Shown: piece by piece, positions 56 through 9,013 of the stretch
How the letters are laid out: the number at the start of each line of letters is the position of its first letter
Position numbering within the stretch: the stretch's first letter is position 1
Origin: Burkholderiales bacterium
GTDB taxonomy: Bacteria; Pseudomonadota; Gammaproteobacteria; Burkholderiales; Burkholderiaceae
NCBI GenBank assembly: GCA_903643055.1
Contig: CAHJWV010000720.1
Coordinates: forward strand, 1 to 9,013
DNA length: 9,013 nucleotides
Reading direction: 5' to 3'
The notes under the pieces: generated by a model
What the model was told of the DNA's origin: nothing
The model's database searches: none
What the model saw: only the letters and a program-made list of their open reading frames with translations
Position numbers and translations under genes: made by a program

Positions 56-819
56 GCACCTACCCGTATTACGACGCAGCCACTGGCGGCATCCGCTTCG
101 AAGAAATGCTGGCCGCGCTCGATCAGCTGCCGCCGAAGAGCATCGTGCTGCTGCATGCCTGCTGCCACAACCCGACCGGCGTCGACCTGAGTGCCGAGCA
201 ATGGGCGCGGCTGATTCCGTTGATCCGCAAGCGCGAGCTGCTGCCTTATGTCGACATCGCCTATCAGGGCTTTGGTGACGGCATCGAGGAAGACGCCTTC
301 GCGGTGCGTGCGCTGGCCGATGCCGGCATCAGCTTCTTCTGTGCCAGTTCGTTCTCGAAGAGCTTTTCGCTGTACGGCGAGCGCTGCGGCGGCCTGAGTG
401 TGGTCTGCCCGACAGCCGCCGAAGCCGAGCTGGTGCTGGGCCAGATGAAGAGCACGATCCGCAAGAACTACTCGAGCCCGCCCACCCACGGCGGCCAGAT
501 CGTTGCCCGCGTGCTGCAAAGCCCTGAGTTGCGCGCGCAGTGGGCCGCCGAGCTGGACGCGATGCGCGTGCGCATCCGCCAGATGCGCGAGCAGCTCCAC
601 GCCGTGCTCAGCGCGAAGCTGCCGGGCCGCGACTTCGGCTACTTCCTGAGCCAGCGCGGCATGTTCAGCTACACCGGCCTGAGCGCCGCGCAGGTCGATC
701 GCCTGCGCGAAGAACATGCGGTCTATCTCGTGCGCTCCGGCCGCATGTGCGTGGCCGGGCTGAACACCGGCAATGTCGAGGCCACGGCTGTCGCAATGGC
801 GGCTGTCTTAGCGGGATGA
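56..819 (+). CDS. Class I amino acid aminotransferase (aspartate/aromatic type), 5'-truncated by adapter
   Basis: C-terminal part of a PLP-dependent fold-type I transaminase of the AspC/TyrB family, which moves the amino group between aspartate or aromatic amino acids and 2-oxoglutarate in the cytoplasm. The first whole genomic codon is 58-60 (Thr of TYPYYD). Visible family landmarks, by codon position: Asn of CCHNPTG (169-171), Asp and Tyr of the VDIAYQGF stretch (253-255 and 262-264), the Schiff-base Lys in SSFSKSFSLYGER (358-360), the phosphate-binding Arg (382-384) and the substrate-carboxylate Arg of SGRMCVAG (742-744). About 253 genuine residues remain of a usual ~397, so roughly 145 N-terminal residues are missing beyond the contig edge. 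The apparent ATG at 22 is adapter. The stop TGA (817-819) overlaps the start of the helicase. Sequence alone does not separate AspC from TyrB specificity, so no symbol is given. The family assignment is firm. Confidence 0.95.
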
Positions 820-3800
820 AGGACCTCGCCGCCTATCTCGCGCTGACCGCCGAAGAACACGATCTGCTCGGCGCCGCGGCGCTGGGCGGCCCGATGCGCA
901 CACGGACCTGGCTCCTCGCGATGCTGGCCCAGCTCGGCGCCAAAAATGCGCAAGGCAAGCGTTACACGGCAGAAGACGTGCGTCAGCTCACGCTGCAGCT
1001 GGCCGCATCGGGCTGGCTGATCGAAGACCATTTGCGCCCCGGCTACTGGCAGGTGGCGGCCGATGCCTTCAGCACGGTCTACCTGCACTGGCTCGACACG
1101 CATGACGCGGCCGAGCTGCGCACCCACCTGGCCGCTGCGATGGGCTACCGCGAGCATGCCTACTACGGCTTCGCCGATCTGTTCAGCGCCGTGGCGATCG
1201 TGCGGCTCGAGATCTATACCGGCGTGCCGTTCGAGGAAGTCGAACGGCTGAAAGCGGCCTGCCATTTCGGGCAGTCATGGGATGACGTGCTGCGGCGCGC
1301 AGTCACTGACTTGCTCGACGAAGCGCTGTTCAATCGCCTACCGGCGCCTCTGCAACGCGACTTGCTGTTCGAGGGCCATTCGCTGCTGCTGATGGACCTT
1401 GACGCGCCGACGATCCCGCTGTTCCCGCTGACCGAACGCTACCTCGCGCAACACCGCGGCGACACCGGCTTTGCGCTGCGCGCGGTCACCTGCGAGCACC
1501 TGCTGTGGGCCGGCCGCGCAGCGGAGATCGACGCGGTTTTGAAGCCGATGCGCAAGGGGCCGAAGACCGACGCGTACTGGCAGGCGATTGCGCAGGCGAT
1601 CGACGCAGCCCGGCTGATGCAGCAAGGCCAGTGGGCCGAAGCCGAAGCCGGCTTTGACAGCGCGCTCACCCCACTGAAAGAGCACTCGGGCAAGCGCAAA
1701 AAACTGCTGCCGCTGACGCTGGTCACGGCTTATGTGCTGAGCCTGCTGGCGCAGCCGAGCGCGGACCATTTGAAGAAGGCGCTGAAGTTCTGCCTGGCCG
1801 AAGGTGGCAAGCGAACGCCGGACGACAACCACTGGAGCGGCATCGTGGCCCGCGCGATCCAGATGCGCATCGGCGACGAAGCCCGCGATCTGAAGGCCTT
1901 CAAGCCGAAGACCCACGCGCCCAGCATCGACCCCTTCGATGCCTGGCGCTGGCTGATGGCCGCCTGGCTTCAGCGCGGCGATGAAACCGGCCCGTTGAGC
2001 GCTGCGCAGCAAGCCCCGCTCAACGCGCTGCGCGAGCGCGTTGCGGCACGCGGCTTGACTGCCTGGCTCGGCCAGATCGACAACGCGGCGCGCGTGCTGC
2101 AAGGCGAAGCGCCGCCGGCCGATTTCTTTGTGCCGCCGGCAGAGGCGTCATGGCGCTCGGCGCTGGCCTCGCTGCTGGCGATCGCGCCATCACAAGGCAG
2201 CAGTTCAACGGAAACCCATGGCGACACCCGCCTCGTGTGGATGCTGGACGTCACCCGCAACGGCGCCTTGGTCGACATCGAGCCGCACGAACAAAAGCGC
2301 GGCCCGCGCGGCTGGGGCAAGGCCAAGCCGGTATCGCTGGCCCGTCTTGCGAAGGCCGAAAAGCTGCAGCCGGCCGATGCGCTCGTTGCGCGCGCCGTGC
2401 GGCCGATGCCTGCCGAGCGCACCGTGCGCCTGGACCTGGCCGCGGCGATCGCCGCGCTGGTCGGCCATCCGCACGTCGAGTTCTCCGATGCACCCGGCAT
2501 CACGGTCGCGCTGAGCGAAGCCGGGCCGGAGATCGACGTCGTCGCGGTGGGCACTCAGCGCCGCGTGCGCATGCTGCCGACGCTGCACGCGCCACGCCCG
2601 CAAATGCACCGCTACCCCGCCATCGGCGCGGCAGAGCAAAAGGAGCTCGAAGCGCTGCAGGCCGTCAGCATCTTGCGTGATTCACCCCAGCGGGCCCGCC
2701 TGATCCGGCTGAGCGCGGCGCACCGCCGCGTGGCCCAGTTGCTCGGCGATGGTCTGCTGGTGCCGGCCGATGGCTCGGCCCAGCTGCAAGACGTGCTGCA
2801 AGGCCTGGGCGCGCATTTCCAGATCCATGCCGACGAAGTGCAGGCCGCACGCGAGGTGGAGCCCGATGCGCGGCTGCGTGCCGAGCTGGCACCGCAGCGC
2901 GATGGCGTGTCGCTGCGGCTGGTGGTGGCGCCACTCGGCGTCGACGGTCCGCGGCTGCCGCCCGGCAGCGGCCGCGCCCGGCTGGTGTCGGCGATCGGTG
3001 GAGAAACCGTCGGCGCACAACGCGACCTGGCGCAAGAGCGCGCGAACCTCGATGCCGTGCTCGACGCCTGCCCGATGCTGGAAACCGGCCAGGCGGCCAC
3101 GTCGAGCGAATGGCAGATCGACAGTGCCGACCACGCGCTGGAACTGGTCGAGCGGCTGCATGCGCTGACCGCGCCGGGCGGCGCGGTGGCCGAACTCGAC
3201 TGGCCGGCCGGCAAGGCCTTGCGGGTCGACACCGCCACCCTGGGTCAGCTGCAGGTGAACGTGCGCACCGCCACCGACTGGCTCGCCTTGCAAGGCGGCG
3301 TGAAGATCGACGAGCACCTGGTGTTCAGCCTGAGCCAGTTGATCGAATGGAGCCGCAAGGGCGGGGGCCGCTTTGTGCCGTTGGGCGAAGGCCGTTACCT
3401 GGCGCTGACACAGGAGCTGCGCGCGCGCCTCGATGAAATGGCCACGGTGGTCGAAGTGCAGCGCGGCGAAGCCCAGCTGCCGGGGGTGGCGGCCAACTGG
3501 CTGAGCGCGGTGACCGATGGCGCGCAGCTCGATGCCGACCCCGCCTTCCATCGGCGCATCGAGCAGCTGCTGGCCGCGCAAGACAAGGCCATCACGCTGC
3601 CGCCCGGCCTGCAAGCCGAGCTGCGGCCTTATCAGGAAGAAGGCTACCGATGGGCGATGCGCCTGGCCCATGCCGGGCTCGGCGCCTGCCTCGCCGATGA
3701 CATGGGCCTGGGCAAGACGCTGCAGTCGCTGGCGGTGCTGCTGGCGCGCTCCGCCGGTGGCCCAGCACTGCTGATCGCGCCGACCTCGTTGATGGGCAAC

Positions 3801-4997
3801 TGGCAGGCCGAGGCCCGCCGCTTCGCGCCAACGCTGCAGTTCCATGTGTTTGCCGATGTCGAACGCGCGGGCTCGTTCGATCACCTCGGCCCTCACGACG
3901 TGATGATGGTGTCTTACCAGCTGCATCAGCAGAACGTGGCCGCCTTCGCAGCGCGCGAATGGCACACGCTGGTGCTCGATGAAGCCCAGGCCATCAAGAA
4001 CGCAGCCGCCAAGCGATCGCAGGCCGTGCATGACATGCGCGCCGACTTCCGGCTCGCCTTGTCGGGCACACCGATCGAGAACCGGCTGTCCGAGCTGTGG
4101 TCGGTGATGCGGGTGTGCAACCCCGGCCTGCTGGGCAGCCTCGCGCGCTTCAATGAGCGCTTTGCCGGCCCGATCGAGCGCGACCGCAACCGCCAGGCCC
4201 AGCGCAGCCTGCGCCGGCTGATCTCGCCGTTCATCCTGCGTCGCACCAAGGCCCAGGTGCTGGACGACCTGCCGCCGCGCACCGAGCTGACGCTGACGGT
4301 GCAGGCCGATGGCGCCGAGCGCGCGCACTATGAAGCGCTGCGCCGCGAAGCGCTGGAAGCGGCCCAGCAATCGCTGGCCGGCAGCCCGGCCGGCCAGGCG
4401 CAAATGAACATCCTTGCCCAGCTGACCAAGCTGCGCCGCGCCGCCTGCGACCCGCGGCTGGTCAGCCCGCAACTCGGGCTGACCGGCGCCAAGGTGCAGG
4501 CCTTCGGCGAGCTGGCCGCCGAGCTGTCGGCCAACGGCCACAAGGCGCTCGTATTCAGCCAGTTCGTCGACTTCCTGGCGCTGCTGCGCGAACCGCTCGA
4601 TGCCGCCGGCATCCGCTATCAATACCTGGACGGCGCCACACCTACCGCGGAACGTACACGCCGTGTCGCCGCCTTCCAGGCCGGCGAAGGCGACCTGTTC
4701 CTGATCAGCCTGAAGGCCGGCGGCTTCGGCTTGAACCTGACGATGGCCGACTATGTGGTGATCGCCGACCCGTGGTGGAACCCCGCTGCCGAAGACCAGG
4801 CCAGCGGCCGCGCCCACCGCATCGGCCAGCAGCGGCCGGTGACGGTGTACCGGCTGGTGAACGGCGGCACGCTGGAGGAGCGCATCGTCGCGCTGCACCA
4901 GAGCAAGCGCGAGTTGGCCGACAGCGTGCTCGAAGGCGGCGACATCGGCGGCGTGCTGAAGGCCGACGAACTGGTGGCCTTGATGCAGGGCGATTGA
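816..4997 (+). CDS. SNF2/Swi2-family DEAD/DEAH-box helicase-like ATPase with long N-terminal extension
   Basis: A 1393-residue SF2 ATPase of the bacterial SNF2 class, expected to use ATP to translocate on double-stranded DNA or remodel nucleoprotein. The C-terminal engine is intact: motif I DDMGLGKT (961-968, Lys967), Ia LIAPTSLMGNW shortly after, motif II DEAQ (1055-1058), motif III LSGTPIEN (1082-1089), FILRRTKAQV (from 1139), motif IV KALVFSQF (1243-1250), DPWWNP (1318-1323) and motif VI QASGRAHRIGQ (1328-1338). Before it lies a SNF2-associated segment (about 834-872, with RFVPLGEGRYLAL), a stretch around 470-510 containing GWGKAKPVSL that recurs in bacterial SNF2 proteins, and about 450 N-terminal residues that look winged-helix-like then helical/TPR-like. 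No CxC...CxH SWIM zinc finger is visible. The start at 816 is chosen because ATGA overlaps the upstream stop and no better SD-led start exists; the frame stays open to 540 only by chance over the aminotransferase. The overlap suggests translational coupling. The cellular role (repair, transcription recycling, defence) cannot be read from the sequence. Confidence 0.93.
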   Translation: MKDLAAYLALTAEEHDLLGAAALGGPMRTRTWLLAMLAQLGAKNAQGKRYTAEDVRQLTLQLAASGWLIEDHLRPGYWQVAADAFSTVYLHWLDTHDAAELRTHLAAAMGYREHAYYGFADLFSAVAIVRLEIYTGVPFEEVERLKAACHFGQSWDDVLRRAVTDLLDEALFNRLPAPLQRDLLFEGHSLLLMDLDAPTIPLFPLTERYLAQHRGDTGFALRAVTCEHLLWAGRAAEIDAVLKPMRKGPKTDAYWQAIAQAIDAARLMQQGQWAEAEAGFDSALTPLKEHSGKRKKLLPLTLVTAYVLSLLAQPSADHLKKALKFCLAEGGKRTPDDNHWSGIVARAIQMRIGDEARDLKAFKPKTHAPSIDPFDAWRWLMAAWLQRGDETGPLSAAQQAPLNALRERVAARGLTAWLGQIDNAARVLQGEAPPADFFVPPAEASWRSALASLLAIAPSQGSSSTETHGDTRLVWMLDVTRNGALVDIEPHEQKRGPRGWGKAKPVSLARLAKAEKLQPADALVARAVRPMPAERTVRLDLAAAIAALVGHPHVEFSDAPGITVALSEAGPEIDVVAVGTQRRVRMLPTLHAPRPQMHRYPAIGAAEQKELEALQAVSILRDSPQRARLIRLSAAHRRVAQLLGDGLLVPADGSAQLQDVLQGLGAHFQIHADEVQAAREVEPDARLRAELAPQRDGVSLRLVVAPLGVDGPRLPPGSGRARLVSAIGGETVGAQRDLAQERANLDAVLDACPMLETGQAATSSEWQIDSADHALELVERLHALTAPGGAVAELDWPAGKALRVDTATLGQLQVNVRTATDWLALQGGVKIDEHLVFSLSQLIEWSRKGGGRFVPLGEGRYLALTQELRARLDEMATVVEVQRGEAQLPGVAANWLSAVTDGAQLDADPAFHRRIEQLLAAQDKAITLPPGLQAELRPYQEEGYRWAMRLAHAGLGACLADDMGLGKTLQSLAVLLARSAGGPALLIAPTSLMGNWQAEARRFAPTLQFHVFADVERAGSFDHLGPHDVMMVSYQLHQQNVAAFAAREWHTLVLDEAQAIKNAAAKRSQAVHDMRADFRLALSGTPIENRLSELWSVMRVCNPGLLGSLARFNERFAGPIERDRNRQAQRSLRRLISPFILRRTKAQVLDDLPPRTELTLTVQADGAERAHYEALRREALEAAQQSLAGSPAGQAQMNILAQLTKLRRAACDPRLVSPQLGLTGAKVQAFGELAAELSANGHKALVFSQFVDFLALLREPLDAAGIRYQYLDGATPTAERTRRVAAFQAGEGDLFLISLKAGGFGLNLTMADYVVIADPWWNPAAEDQASGRAHRIGQQRPVTVYRLVNGGTLEERIVALHQSKRELADSVLEGGDIGGVLKADELVALMQGD

Positions 4998-4998
4998 G

Positions 4999-5020
4999 CG
5001 CCAGGGCACGGCGATTTTTT
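4999..5020 (+). terminator. Weak intrinsic terminator after the helicase gene
   Basis: Immediately after the helicase stop, CGCC (4999-5002) can pair with GGCG (5010-5013) across a seven-base loop. One A and six T follow (5015-5020). The T-run is convincing but the stem is only four G/C pairs, so termination is probably partial. Confidence 0.4.
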
Positions 5021-5031
5021 GCATTTCGTCA

Positions 5032-5057
5032 TGTAAGAACGCTTGGAATCGATCGAC
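5032..5057 (+). promoter_or_regulatory. Possible ECF-sigma-type promoter of the buf operon
   Basis: In the 139-base gap before bufA, GTAAGA (5033-5038) followed after 15 bases by CGAC (5054-5057) resembles the GTAAC-type -35 and CGA-type -10 elements of several ECF sigma factors. Bufferin operons in other proteobacteria are commonly under ECF sigma control, which is why this reading is favoured; no good sigma-70 pair is seen in the gap. The implied leader is about 75 bases. No sigma factor or anti-sigma gene lies in the window, so the regulator would have to be elsewhere. The call rests on a short, degenerate match. Confidence 0.3.
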
Positions 5058-5136
5058 AGAGAAAGGCAAGCGCGGTGCATCGTTCCAACCGAACCCGCGC
5101 CTTGTTAGTCATCCACTCGAATCAAGGACAACCATC

Positions 5137-5394
5137 ATGCTGAACATCAAATCCGGCCTCGCCCTCGCCACCACCGCTGCCGCCCTCTTCTCGATGGGCA
5201 TGGTCGCCACGCCCGCCCACGCCGCGGACGACGGCCACGTCAAATGCTCCGGCGCCAATACCTGCAAAGGTTCCTCGGAATGCAAGACCGCCAAGAGCGA
5301 GTGCAAGGGCCAGAACACCTGCAAGGGTCAGGGCTGGGTCAGCAAGAAGACGGCCGAAGAGTGCACCAAGGCCGGCGGCAGCGTCGCGAAATAA
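5137..5394 (+). CDS. bufA: BufA: Cys-rich secreted bufferin precursor (BufA2-like RiPP metallophore)
   Basis: An 85-residue precursor with a classical Sec signal peptide: short Lys-containing N-terminus, hydrophobic core (about 7-24) and a TPAHA|ADD cleavage site after Ala29. The predicted mature peptide (30-85, 56 residues) has six cysteines at 37, 43, 49, 56, 62 and 76 and many lysines. Two modules match closely, CSGANTCKG (37-45) and CKGQNTCKG (56-64); the second runs into a GQGW motif, and Cys76 lies in a SKKTAEECTKAGG tail. From family knowledge, such peptides are modified on selected cysteines by the MNIO enzyme encoded next door, then exported to the periplasm, where they bind excess metal (copper in Caulobacter). 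The start is supported by AAGGA (5124-5128) eight bases upstream of ATG. It lacks the classical DUF2282 pattern and fits the BufA2-type family better. Which cysteines are modified and which metal is bound are inferences that the sequence does not settle. Confidence 0.88.
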   Translation: MLNIKSGLALATTAAALFSMGMVATPAHAADDGHVKCSGANTCKGSSECKTAKSECKGQNTCKGQGWVSKKTAEECTKAGGSVAK

Positions 5395-5396
5395 AT

Positions 5397-5411
5397 CCGC
5401 GTTCGCGGTTT
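5397..5411 (+). other. Small hairpin directly after the bufA stop
   Basis: Three bases after the TAA of bufA, CCGC (5397-5400) pairs with GCGG (5405-5408) around a GTTC loop, followed by only three T. It is too weak for a strong terminator but may protect the 3' end of a bufA-only transcript. Confidence 0.35.
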
Positions 5412-5416
5412 GGGCA

Positions 5417-5457
5417 GGTGCCCATTCGTCGTCATGTCAGATGACGAGTTAGGCACC
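5417..5457 (+). promoter_or_regulatory. Two-tier hairpin in the bufA-bufB gap (attenuator or mRNA-stability element)
   Basis: An inner perfect stem TCGTCAT (5429-5435) / ATGACGA (5441-5447) with a five-base loop is enclosed by an outer stem GGTGCC (5417-5422) / GGCACC (5452-5457), separated by unpaired bases of six and four nucleotides. No T-run follows, so it is not a standard intrinsic terminator. Its place between a small abundant peptide gene and the enzyme gene suits partial transcription attenuation or a barrier to 3' exonucleases, giving more bufA than bufBC mRNA. That role is inferred; the pairing itself is directly visible. Confidence 0.55.
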
Positions 5458-5504
5458 CGATTGAATGCCAACCAGGAGCCCGGCGTGCGAGGCAATCTGC
5501 CCGC

Positions 5505-6401
5505 ATGCCGGCTTTCGCGATGAACACATCAAGCAGCTCGCCGCTGAATGGCTTCGGCCTGGGCCTGCGCCCCGAGCACTACGCCGAATTCGGCCCCGGC
5601 CCGTCGGGTGTCGACTGGCTGGAAGTGATCTCCGAGAACTTCATGGTCGCGGGCGGCAAGCCGCTGCACCACCTGGACCGCCTGCGCCGCGATCACCCGA
5701 TGGTGATGCACGGCGTGTCGATGTCCATCGGCAGCACCGACCCGCTGGACCTCGGTTATCTGCGCGAGCTGAAGGCGCTGGCCGCGCGCATCGAGCCCGC
5801 CTGGCTGTCAGACCACCTCTGCTGGACCGGCGTCGACCACCACAACCTGCACGACCTGCTGCCGCTGCCCTACACCGAGGCTGCGCTGCGCCATGTGGCC
5901 GATCGCGTGCGGCAGGTGCAAGACGTTCTCGGCCGCCGCCTGCTGCTGGAGAACGTGTCGAGCTACGTCAGCTTCGAAGGCGACGAGATGAGCGAATGGG
6001 AGTTCATCACCGAACTGCTGCAGCGCGCCGATTGCGAGCTGCTGCTCGACGTCAACAACGTTTACGTCAGCAGCGTCAACCACGGCTTCGACCCGCGGCA
6101 GTTCATCGACGCAATGCCGCGCGAGCGTGTGCGCCAGATCCACCTCGCCGGCCATGAAGATCACGGCAGCTACCTGATCGACACCCACGGCCACCCGGTG
6201 TGCGACGCGGTCTGGTCGCTCTACCGCCACACGGTGGGCCGCTTCGGCGCAGTGCCCACGATGATCGAACGCGACGACCACATTCCACCGCTGGCCGACC
6301 TGCTCGCCGAGCTGGGCCAGGCGCGGCAGATTCAGGCCGAGGCGCTGGCGGAACCGCCGGCCGGCGCGCGCACCGAAGCCTCCAGCTTGCAGACTGCATG
6401 A
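5505..6401 (+). CDS. bufB: BufB: DUF692/MNIO-family multinuclear iron oxidase
   Basis: A 298-residue TIM-barrel enzyme of the DUF692 (MNIO) family, related to MbnB and TglH, which use two or three iron ions and O2 to oxidise cysteine in peptide substrates. The N-terminus carries the family signature [11 protein letters not shown] (16-26) and LEVISENFM (39-47). The metal-ligand pattern is complete: His69 (MHGVSMS), His104 (SDHLCW), Glu149 (LLLENV), Asp182 and Asn185 (LDVNNVY), His213 and His217 (IHLAGHE), Asp226 and His228 (DTHGH) and Glu255 (MIERDD). Length is normal for the family; the last ~35 residues are a degenerate tail. ATG 5505 is preceded by a weak GAGG at 5489-5492; ATG 5520, giving MNTSSS, is an equally possible start. 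It sits 110 bases downstream of bufA and overlaps bufC by ATGA, so BufB and BufC are probably made as a coupled pair that acts on BufA in the cytoplasm before export. Confidence 0.93.
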
Positions 6402-7243
6402 GCGTCATTGCCGGGCGCTTTTCTTCCCTCCCTTCACCCGCCCACGCCATGCACACCCTGGCCGAACAGCAAACCCGCTTGCGCAAAGCCATCGTCTCGC
6501 CGGCTTCCACGGTGGCAGCCGATCTGCTGCGGCAAACTGAAGGCCGCGAACCGCTGCTTTGCATCTACCAGCACGCCTACGCGGCGCGGCTGACCGCCGC
6601 ACTGCGCGACAACCACGGCGTGTTGCCCCGTGCAATGGGCGACGAAGCCTTCGATGCATTGGCTGAGGCCTACCTTCAAGCCCATCCGTCTCAGCATCCA
6701 TCGATCCGCTGGTTCGGCCACCGCCTGGCCGACTTCATGGCCGAGCAGCCCGAACTCGTGCCGCATCCGGCGTTCATCGACCTGGCCCGCATGGAATGGG
6801 CACTGCGCGATGCCTTCGATGCGGCCGACGCCACACCCTTGACGATGGCCGAGGTGATGCAATTTCGGCCCACCGAGCAATGGCCCGATTGGGTCCTGAG
6901 CTTTCATCCCAGCCTGCGCCGAGTCCATCTGCAATGGCGCATCGAGCCGGCCTGGCGTGCGCTGCAACAGGGCGACAGCGATGGCGATGCTGACGGCCAA
7001 GTCGAACTTCCCGAGCCGCAAGCCGACGTGCACTGGCTGCTGGTCTGGCGCCCGGCGCTGGAGACCCGCTGGCGTTCGGCTGCCAGCGCGCTGGAAACCC
7101 AACTGCTCGACGCCGCCCTGCGCGGCCAGCCTTTTGCCGCACTGTGCATCGTGGCCGCCCGAGAGGTCGGCGACGACGCGGCGGCTGCAGCAGTCGTCAG
7201 CTCGCTTCAACAGTGGATCGGTGAGGGCCTGTTGATCGGATGA
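6398..7243 (+). CDS. bufC: BufC: DUF2063-family partner of the MNIO enzyme
   Basis: A 281-residue protein recognised by its N-terminal DUF2063-type domain: [12 protein letters not shown], then YQHAYAARL (57-65), the [18 protein letters not shown] and [17 protein letters not shown] stretches, and [17 protein letters not shown]. The C-terminal half (about 150-281) is a less conserved domain with a Trp-rich core and an acidic linker containing SDGDADGQ. In known bufferin and gig operons this protein accompanies the DUF692 enzyme and is thought to present the precursor peptide to it, by analogy with MbnC and other MNIO partners. No signal peptide or membrane segment is convincing. ATG 6398 overlaps the bufB stop (ATGA), implying coupling; a shorter start at 6449 (MHTLAEQQ) would suit family alignments and give 264 residues, leaving the first 17 residues doubtful. 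Confidence 0.88.
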
Positions 7244-7299
7244 ACCCGGCTCGGCACAGCTCACTCCCGTGGCTGCGCACACGCGATGGACAGCCTGTC

Positions 7300-7328
7300 G
7301 CGACACGCTACCGCCCAAGCCCGATAAT
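7300..7328 (+). promoter_or_regulatory. Candidate sigma-70 promoter for prfC
   Basis: GCGACA (7300-7305, four of six consensus bases) and GATAAT (7323-7328, five of six) are separated by exactly 17 bases, placing transcription start near 7335, about 40 bases before the prfC ATG. The -35 box is half of a perfect ten-base palindrome TGTCGCGACA (7296-7305), which could be an operator or chance. The -10 lies inside the loop of the terminator hairpin described separately. Confidence 0.5.
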
Positions 7329-7338
7329 CTCGGGTTTT
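7317..7338 (+). terminator. Intrinsic terminator candidate closing the buf operon
   Basis: AAGCCCGA (7317-7324) pairs with TCGGGTTT (7330-7337), including one G-T wobble, around a five-base TAATC loop, with the T-run 7335-7338 forming the end. It lies 74 bases after the bufC stop. The G/C core is five pairs and the T-run is four, so strength is moderate. The same bases also look like the -10 region of a promoter, and both readings may hold. Confidence 0.5.
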
Positions 7339-7375
7339 CACGAGGCGGCGCGTTTTGTTTGCGCTGCGCCCAAGC

Positions 7376-8971
7376 ATGTCCACCGAGCTGACCTCGCAGG
7401 TGCGCCGCCGCCGCACCTTTGCCATCATTTCCCACCCTGACGCGGGCAAGACCACGCTGACGGAAAAGCTGCTGCTGTTCTCCGGTGCGATCCAGATCGC
7501 CGGCTCGGTGAAGGCGCGCAAGGCATCGCGCCATGCCACCTCCGACTGGATGGAGATCGAAAAGCAGCGCGGCATCTCGGTGGCCAGCTCGGTCATGCAG
7601 ATGGAATACCGTGACTGTGTCATCAACCTGCTCGACACCCCCGGCCACCAGGACTTCTCCGAAGACACCTACCGCGTGCTGACTGCCGTTGACGCCGCGC
7701 TGATGGTGATCGACGCGGCCAACGGCGTGGAGCCGCAGACGCGGCGCCTGCTGCAGGTCTGCCGCGCGCGCAACACGCCGATCCTCACCTTCGTCAACAA
7801 GATGGACCGCGAGGTGCAGGAACCGATGGCGCTGATGGACGAGATCGAGCGCGAGCTCGGCATGGAGGTCGTGCCCTTCACTTGGCCGGTCGGCATGGGC
7901 AAGGCCTTTCATGGCGTGATGGACCTGCGCGAGAAGCAGATGCGCGTCTTCAGCCCCGGCGAAGACCGCGACCACCACGACGATGAAATTCTTCTGGGCC
8001 TGGACAACCCCGCCTATGCCGAACGCTTCGGCATGCAATACGAACAGGCCCAAGGCGAGATCGAACTGCTGAGCGATGCTGCGCCGCCCTTCGACCGCGA
8101 AGCCTTTCTCGGCGGCAAGCAGACGCCGATGTTCTTCGGCTCGGCGGTCAACAACTTCGGCGTGCGCGAAGTGCTCGATGCGCTGGTCGATCTGGCGCCG
8201 CCCCCCGGCCCGCGCCAGGCGGTGCAGCGCGAGGTCCAACCCGATGAGAAGAAGTTCAGCGGCGTGGTCTTCAAGATCCAGGCCAACATGGACCCGGCCC
8301 ACCGCGACCGCATCGCCTTCGTGCGCGTGGCGTCGGGCCACTTCCAACGCGGCATGCGCTTGAAGGTGGGGCGATCGGGCAAGGAGCTGCGGCCGAACAC
8401 CGTCGTGAGCTTTCTGTCGCAGCGGCGCGAGCTGCTCGACGAAGCCTTTGCCGGCGACATCATCGGCATCCCGAACCACGGCGTGCTGCAACTCGGCGAT
8501 ACCTTGAGCGAAGGCGAATCGCTGCTGTACACCGGCCTGCCGTTCTTCGCGCCGGAAATGTTCCGCACCGTCGAAGTGGCCGACCCGCTGCGCACCAAGC
8601 AACTGCGCGCCGGGCTGACGCAGCTCGGCGAAGAAGGCGCGATCCAGGTGTTTCGCCCGGTGGCCGGCTCGATGCTGCTGCTCGGCGCGGTCGGCCAGCT
8701 GCAGTTCGAAGTCGTCGCGCACCGGCTGGAGCATGAATATGGTGTCAAGGCGCGCATCATGCCGAGCCGTTTCCAGGTCGCGCGCTGGGTGACTTGCGAT
8801 GAGGCCGATGGCGGCGAGCGCGAGCTGAAGCGTTTCATCGATGGCAACTCGCACCGCGTGGCGCACGACGCCGTTGACGCGCCCACCGTGCTGGTCGAAT
8901 ACGCGCCCGAGCTGCGCGCGATCGAAGCCAACTGGCCGAAGATCAAGTTCCACGCGTTGCGCGAGCACGCA
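7376..8971 (+). CDS. prfC: Peptide chain release factor 3 (RF3), 3' end cut by adapter
   Basis: Class II release factor: a translational GTPase that helps remove RF1/RF2 from the ribosome after peptide release. All GTPase motifs are present: G1 HPDAGKTT (20-27), the switch region with KQRGISVASSV (63-73), G3 DTPGH (87-91), G4 NKMD (141-144) and a G5-like GSAVNNFGV further on. SDWMEIEKQRGIS and YRVLTAVDAALMVIDAA are RF3-specific surroundings that separate it from EF-G and TypA. There are 532 genomic codons before the adapter; E. coli RF3 has 529 residues and related proteins end just after the FHALREHA stretch seen here, so only a handful of codons and the stop are lost. Past 8971 the frame reads into adapter as RSEERRVGKECRSR, which is not protein. 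ATG 7376 has no clear SD; an in-frame TTG at 7355 with GAGG nine bases upstream would add seven residues but is less likely from family N-termini. No link to the buf genes is implied. Confidence 0.97.
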
Positions 8972-9013
8972 AGATCGGAAGAGCGTCGTGTAGGGAAAGA
9001 GTGTAGATCTCGG
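8972..9013 (+). other. Illumina P5 / read-1 adapter, reverse complement (synthetic contamination)
   Basis: From AGATCGGAAGAGCGTCGTG onward, the 42 bases match the reverse complement of the TruSeq universal (P5/read-1) adapter, lacking its last 16 bases. The boundary is set at 8972, where the adapter match begins; the A there may come from A-tailing. Read in the prfC frame it gives the known artefact tail RSEERRVGKECRSR. Confidence 0.99.

Follow-up and report, generated by a model that had tools for sequence, protein, structure and literature searches.

A minimal Buf2-type bufferin operon, with a candidate stem-loop behind its precursor gene, in a contig of probable Burkholderiales origin

Gene content and surroundings

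Based on the ORF list and Pfam searches, three genes in the order bufABC lie in the window (the whole 9,013-nucleotide stretch of DNA analysed here) and form a minimal Buf2-type bufferin operon, consisting of a Cys-rich peptide, a DUF692/MNIO enzyme and a DUF2063 partner. The features recognized are listed below.

5137..5394, + strand: bufA, BufA2-family bufferin precursor (85 aa; NF050166 at 91.6 bits, six Cys)
5417..5457, + strand: stem-loop in the bufA-bufB gap, a lead (folding compared with shuffles; located by pattern)
5505..6401, + strand: bufB, MNIO (DUF692) bufferin maturase (298 aa; PF05114, NF050167)
6398..7243, + strand: bufC, DUF2063 partner, PME type 1 (281 aa; PF09836, structure model)

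In the ORF list, bufA runs from an ATG at 5137 to a stop ending at 5394. The bufB gene starts at 5505, or at the in-frame ATG at 5520, and ends at 6401; the bufC ATG at 6398 overlaps the bufB stop as ATGA, and the bufC stop ends at 7243. The mechanical ORF list starts bufC at an upstream GTG (6200), a position within bufB. The reading frames of bufB and bufC are both open, and each matches its Pfam family. A preliminary description of this DNA had claimed a secreted Cys-rich peptide followed by an MNIO enzyme and its DUF2063 partner; the three genes are confirmed, and their reading as a bufferin operon is supported by NF050166, NF050167, PF09836 and the structure model of BufC. The stretch carries a typical three-gene set, which probably yields a small exported copper-buffering peptide.

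Upstream, the contig end truncates an aromatic amino acid transaminase gene (374.2 bits; cut-off, 377), and between this and bufA lies a gene for a Snf2-type helicase (816-4997, 1393 aa), whose best model reached 426.5 bits, under the cut-off of 1200. The gene downstream of bufC is prfC (817.7 bits; cut-off, 473). No tblastn match to the helicase was found in 36 loci of BufA relatives, with flanks of at most 4 kb, and in three of these loci (L003, L007 and L022) a transaminase relative ends no more than about 250 nt from bufA. Both contig ends, positions 1-55 and 8972-9013 of the window, we take to be sequencing adapter (an Illumina index primer and the universal adapter) rather than genomic sequence; these ends create false coding ends, for example TGVQTCALPIC and SEERRVGKECRSR.

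The precursor is a BufA2 bufferin

Residues 8-83 of BufA scored 91.6 bits (cut-off, 60) against NF050166, the NCBIfam equivalog named 'BufA2 family periplasmic bufferin-type metallophore'. The N-terminus (residues 1-29) resembles a Sec signal peptide, with an AHA-A site after Ala29 by inspection, and the mature part (residues 30-85) holds all six Cys, at 37, 43, 49, 56, 62 and 76. Four of these (Cys43, 49, 56 and 62) form Cys-Lys sites between Cys37 and Cys76, neither of which is followed by Lys in the window. The six Cys in the mature part had been correctly described earlier, but the Cys49 then called isolated is one of the four Cys-Lys sites.

A search for BufA homologues found 397, and the residue counts refer to the 120 among the matches listed. 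All six Cys columns are kept in all 120 of these listed matches, which is beyond chance, and after residue 20 there are six Cys in 119 of them and seven in one. Among the same 120 listed matches, Lys follows Cys43, 49, 56 and 62 in 120, 114, 120 and 119, respectively, precedes Cys37 in 101 (a Lys-Cys context) and follows Cys76 in 13. A search of solved structures by sequence found no real relative of BufA (best E-value = 0.74). Of the 120 listed homologues, 28 went into a structure model of BufA; its confidence (pLDDT 49.2) is too low for judging a disulphide, and the model was set aside.

The Pfam search with BufA was without any match, and in the Pfam copy used PF10048 (DUF2282) gave no match at E-values up to 10 for the window BufA, its mature part or five homologues. 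The precursor can therefore be called non-DUF2282, as was done in the preliminary description, with respect to that copy, yet 33 of the 120 BufA2 homologues among the matches listed carry a precomputed PF10048.16 (DUF2282) label; four of these 33 were rescanned and gave no match.

According to Antoine et al. 2025 (PMC12452194), Buf1 has DUF2282 and four conserved Cys; of the Buf2 members, 90% have six conserved Cys and the others twelve. The window operon shares gene order and enzyme families with Buf1, but has six Cys and no PF10048 match in the Pfam copy used. With Buf2/BufA2, as defined by NF050166 and in PMC12452194, it shares a six-Cys precursor (with a putative Sec signal peptide in the window) without DUF2282, an MNIO, a DUF2063 partner and the order bufABC; only normal sequence variation was found relative to that system, and no DoxX gene was seen alongside the window operon. 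The earlier suggestion that the six-Cys, non-DUF2282 precursor might be new is not supported, since this is the Buf2 architecture described in that paper; a new architecture was rejected in view of the NF050166 match, the published description and the Cys conservation in the listed homologues. In short, BufA is an ordinary further BufA2 bufferin, and its arrangement of six Cys is the one that typifies an already known family.

The maturase and its partner

BufB scored 386.2 bits against PF05114 (Pfam) and 392.3 bits against the NCBIfam equivalog NF050167, 'MNIO family bufferin maturase' (cut-off, 310). Comparison with bufferin family models, the check proposed at the outset, thus places BufA in the BufA2 equivalog and BufB in the bufferin-maturase equivalog. 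Assignment of BufB as an HvfB-type (oxazolin) enzyme was rejected (NF003818, 296 bits, under the cut-off of 360), and the NCBIfam models of ApyH, the methanobactin enzyme MbnB and ChrH were all under their cut-offs.

The solved structures nearest to BufB by sequence are 3bww, next the DUF692 protein of 8hci and next MbnB. BufB reads ERDD where 3bww reads ERDF, so that Asp258 stands after the presumed catalytic base, Asp257. This column has Asp in 29 of 31 relatives, with one Ala and one Glu; Arg22 is invariant among the 31, none of which has Arg at position 23. Judging from motifs and not from an alignment with FonB, the columns of Asp258, Arg22 and position 23 would correspond to FonB 250, 15 and 16. 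Cys-Lys MNIOs carry Asp at the site of FonB Phe250 (PMC12668002), and BufB likewise has Asp in place of Phe after the catalytic Asp, as found in the Cys-Lys group (BufB2-like). The Lys-Cys captophorins (oxazolin, fontiphorin and gonophorin, of HvfABC, FonABC and NgoABC), which are associated with 5-thiooxazole chemistry, also combine an MNIO with a PME type 1 partner. However, they have EGKCG repeats where the window BufA has Cys-Lys sites, and Phe at FonB 250 where BufB, by the motif-based matching of columns, has Asp.

BufC matched PF09836 (DUF2063) at 67 bits (cut-off, 27.2) and reached only 31.9 bits with the NCBIfam HvfC model, under the cut-off of 142. By sequence, no real relative was found among solved structures (best E-value = 0.8). 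A structure model built with 21 of 28 BufC relatives (pLDDT 87.8) gave three Foldseek matches at E-values up to 0.001, namely TglI (8hci, 8hi7) and NGO1945 (3dee), all with probability 1.00; the TM-scores to 8hci_A, 8hi7_A and 3dee are moderate (0.53-0.58 by query length), and most of the BufC length is covered. Since NGO1945 consists of DUF2063 and an RRE-type domain according to Antoine et al. (PMC12452194), and the BufC model resembles it, BufC is a PME type 1 partner, in which DUF2063 is followed by an RRE-like domain.

Relatives and their loci

For genomic comparison, 36 loci of BufA relatives (L001-L036) were used. The best BufA genome matches are records of Rhizobacter, Caldimonas, Methylibium and Paucibacter/Roseateles, which we take to be Burkholderiales, and the host of the window is therefore probably a Burkholderiales bacterium. 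The matched stretch contains at least six Cys in all 36 loci, and the full Cys spacing pattern in 33, the exceptions being L032, L035 and L036. Within 600 nt downstream of bufA, 31 of the 36 have a bufB gene and, by the same rule, 28 a bufC gene; tblastn added bufC in two further loci (L024 and L033). No bufB was found within 600 nt in the remaining five (L001, L002, L010, L026 and L034), and these still carry the six-Cys pattern. In the peptide comparison the nearest genome relatives are L001 (80%) and L002 (79%), both without nearby bufB. A sizeable share of precursors stand alone, according to Antoine et al. (PMC12452194). At L020 (4001-4339) the precursor reads longer, 144 aa by script, and its matched stretch contains seven Cys.

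A stem-loop after bufA

The 110-nt gap between bufA and bufB folds at -50 kcal/mol, compared with -37.5 (sd 3.86) in 200 shuffles, one of which was as low. In the window and the 36 loci (n = 37), the best single hairpin in the 80 nt after bufA had a median of -29.2 kcal/mol, versus -21.8 in 222 stretches drawn at random from these sequences and -21.4 in 111 shuffles of single bases; the loci are related and GC-rich, and for L003, L014, L022 and L035 a short gap brings part of bufB into the stretch. Hairpins of -20 kcal/mol or lower were found after bufA in 35 of 37 cases, in 137 of the 222 random stretches and in 72 of the 111 shuffles, and those of -25 kcal/mol or lower in 27, 71 and 33, respectively. 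The weak ones are L014 (-7.6 kcal/mol) and L033 (-14.8 kcal/mol). Whole-gap folding relative to dinucleotide shuffles varies, and L001 (z = +1.15), L032 (-0.50) and L033 (-0.42) show no excess.

The five loci without adjacent bufB also have hairpins (-20.5 to -37.2 kcal/mol), so that the hairpin does not depend on the presence of the enzyme genes. Its stems differ in sequence among relatives, and a repeated element was rejected, as the window holds a single copy of its own. A promoter/terminator scan of 4980-7420 gave one promoter-like site (7300-7328, ahead of prfC), none before bufA and no terminator-like site; this last result argues against the hairpin being a classical terminator. The words hairpin, terminator and stem-loop do not occur in the available text of PMC12452194, the one paper searched for them. 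The stable stem-loop after bufA in the window and many relatives is regarded here as a lead. We suggest tentatively, with rather more doubt than belief, that a Buf2 stem-loop after the precursor gene, of which the shape is kept while the sequence changes, allows many precursors to be made per enzyme, either by partial termination or by shielding of the bufA message.

Proposed maturation and the modified cysteines

The model that we favour, with modest confidence in it as a whole, is that of a Buf2-type operon producing an exported, Cu(I)-buffering peptide with four 5-thiooxazoles and a Cys37-Cys76 disulphide. BufB and BufC would bind precursor BufA while it is in the cytoplasm, BufC by means of its RRE-like part, and the iron centre of BufB would oxidise each Cys that precedes Lys by four electrons, so that Cys43, 49, 56 and 62 would become 5-thiooxazoles. 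Sec would then export BufA, the signal peptide being cut after Ala29; Cys37 and Cys76 would pair as a disulphide, and the mature peptide would hold Cu(I) in the periplasm and buffer excess copper. The sequence analysis itself shows the gene content and order, the families of BufA and BufB, the conservation of the six Cys and of Asp258, and the fold of the BufC model; we infer the chemistry, the export and the copper role of BufA from studied relatives.

The most likely product is therefore a Cu(I)-binding exported peptide with rings at Cys43, 49, 56 and 62 and a disulphide between Cys37 and Cys76. The choice of modified Cys and the disulphide are the most conjectural part of the model. They are favoured because of the four Cys-Lys sites and because of the precedent of Buf1, in which, according to PMC12452194, modification falls on the central Cys and a disulphide joins the outer pair. 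The same paper gives preliminary data for the Buf2 of C. vibrioides: Buf1-like function, an equal mass loss per Cys and a 305 nm maximum.

With the same family and enzymes, modification might instead extend to every one of the six Cys, or to a different subset such as Cys37 plus others, and no Cys37-Cys76 disulphide would then form. We regard this as rather unlikely. All six Cys are equally conserved among the matches listed, and the outer two may also be sites, because Lys precedes Cys37 in most of these matches and follows Cys76 in some; FonB and HvfB modify Lys-Cys motifs, and MmrA has all six of its Cys modified according to PMC12538549. In the discussion of PMC12452194, moreover, the Buf2 modification is described as not identified, which also makes fair the earlier caution against simply transferring the count and sites of modification from studied cases. 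Against modification of the outer Cys stands that of Buf1 at the central Cys only, as given in that paper. Furthermore, the Lys-Cys enzyme FonBC did not process those tested substrates in which a charged residue follows Cys (PMC12668002); this limit, together with the difference of Cys-Lys MNIOs at the matching site, makes a preference by motif likely. As 4 Da are lost per modified Cys, four rings and a disulphide would amount to about 18 Da and six rings to about 24 Da.

Copper and the meaning of the operon

A bufABC relative on a plasmid of Pseudomonas mandelii, with matches to both BufA and BufB, adjoins genes for a heavy-metal P-type ATPase, a MerR regulator, TolC and an RND adaptor. In the window, no metal gene (including copper), sigma-factor gene or DoxX gene was seen. 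A bufferin whose main cellular task concerns another soft metal or a stress, and not copper, is improbable: it would agree with the lack of a visible copper gene in the window, with the MerC-Buf2 fusions that are interpreted in PMC12452194 as pointing to other metals, and with the Legionella GIG operon (DUF692, DUF2063, DoxX and a precursor labelled DUF2282), which is responsive to both gold and copper, but published 5-thiooxazole peptides, as far as the available texts go, generally bind copper, and the C. vibrioides Buf2 is reported in PMC12452194 as acting like Buf1. A related Microbulbifer cluster was not expressed under copper, according to PMC12538549, which speaks against a general copper rule.

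In the favoured copper-buffering model, the operon is a compact and complete instance of a widespread family of copper-handling peptides, and it bears on the question of which of the six Cys in Buf2 are converted.
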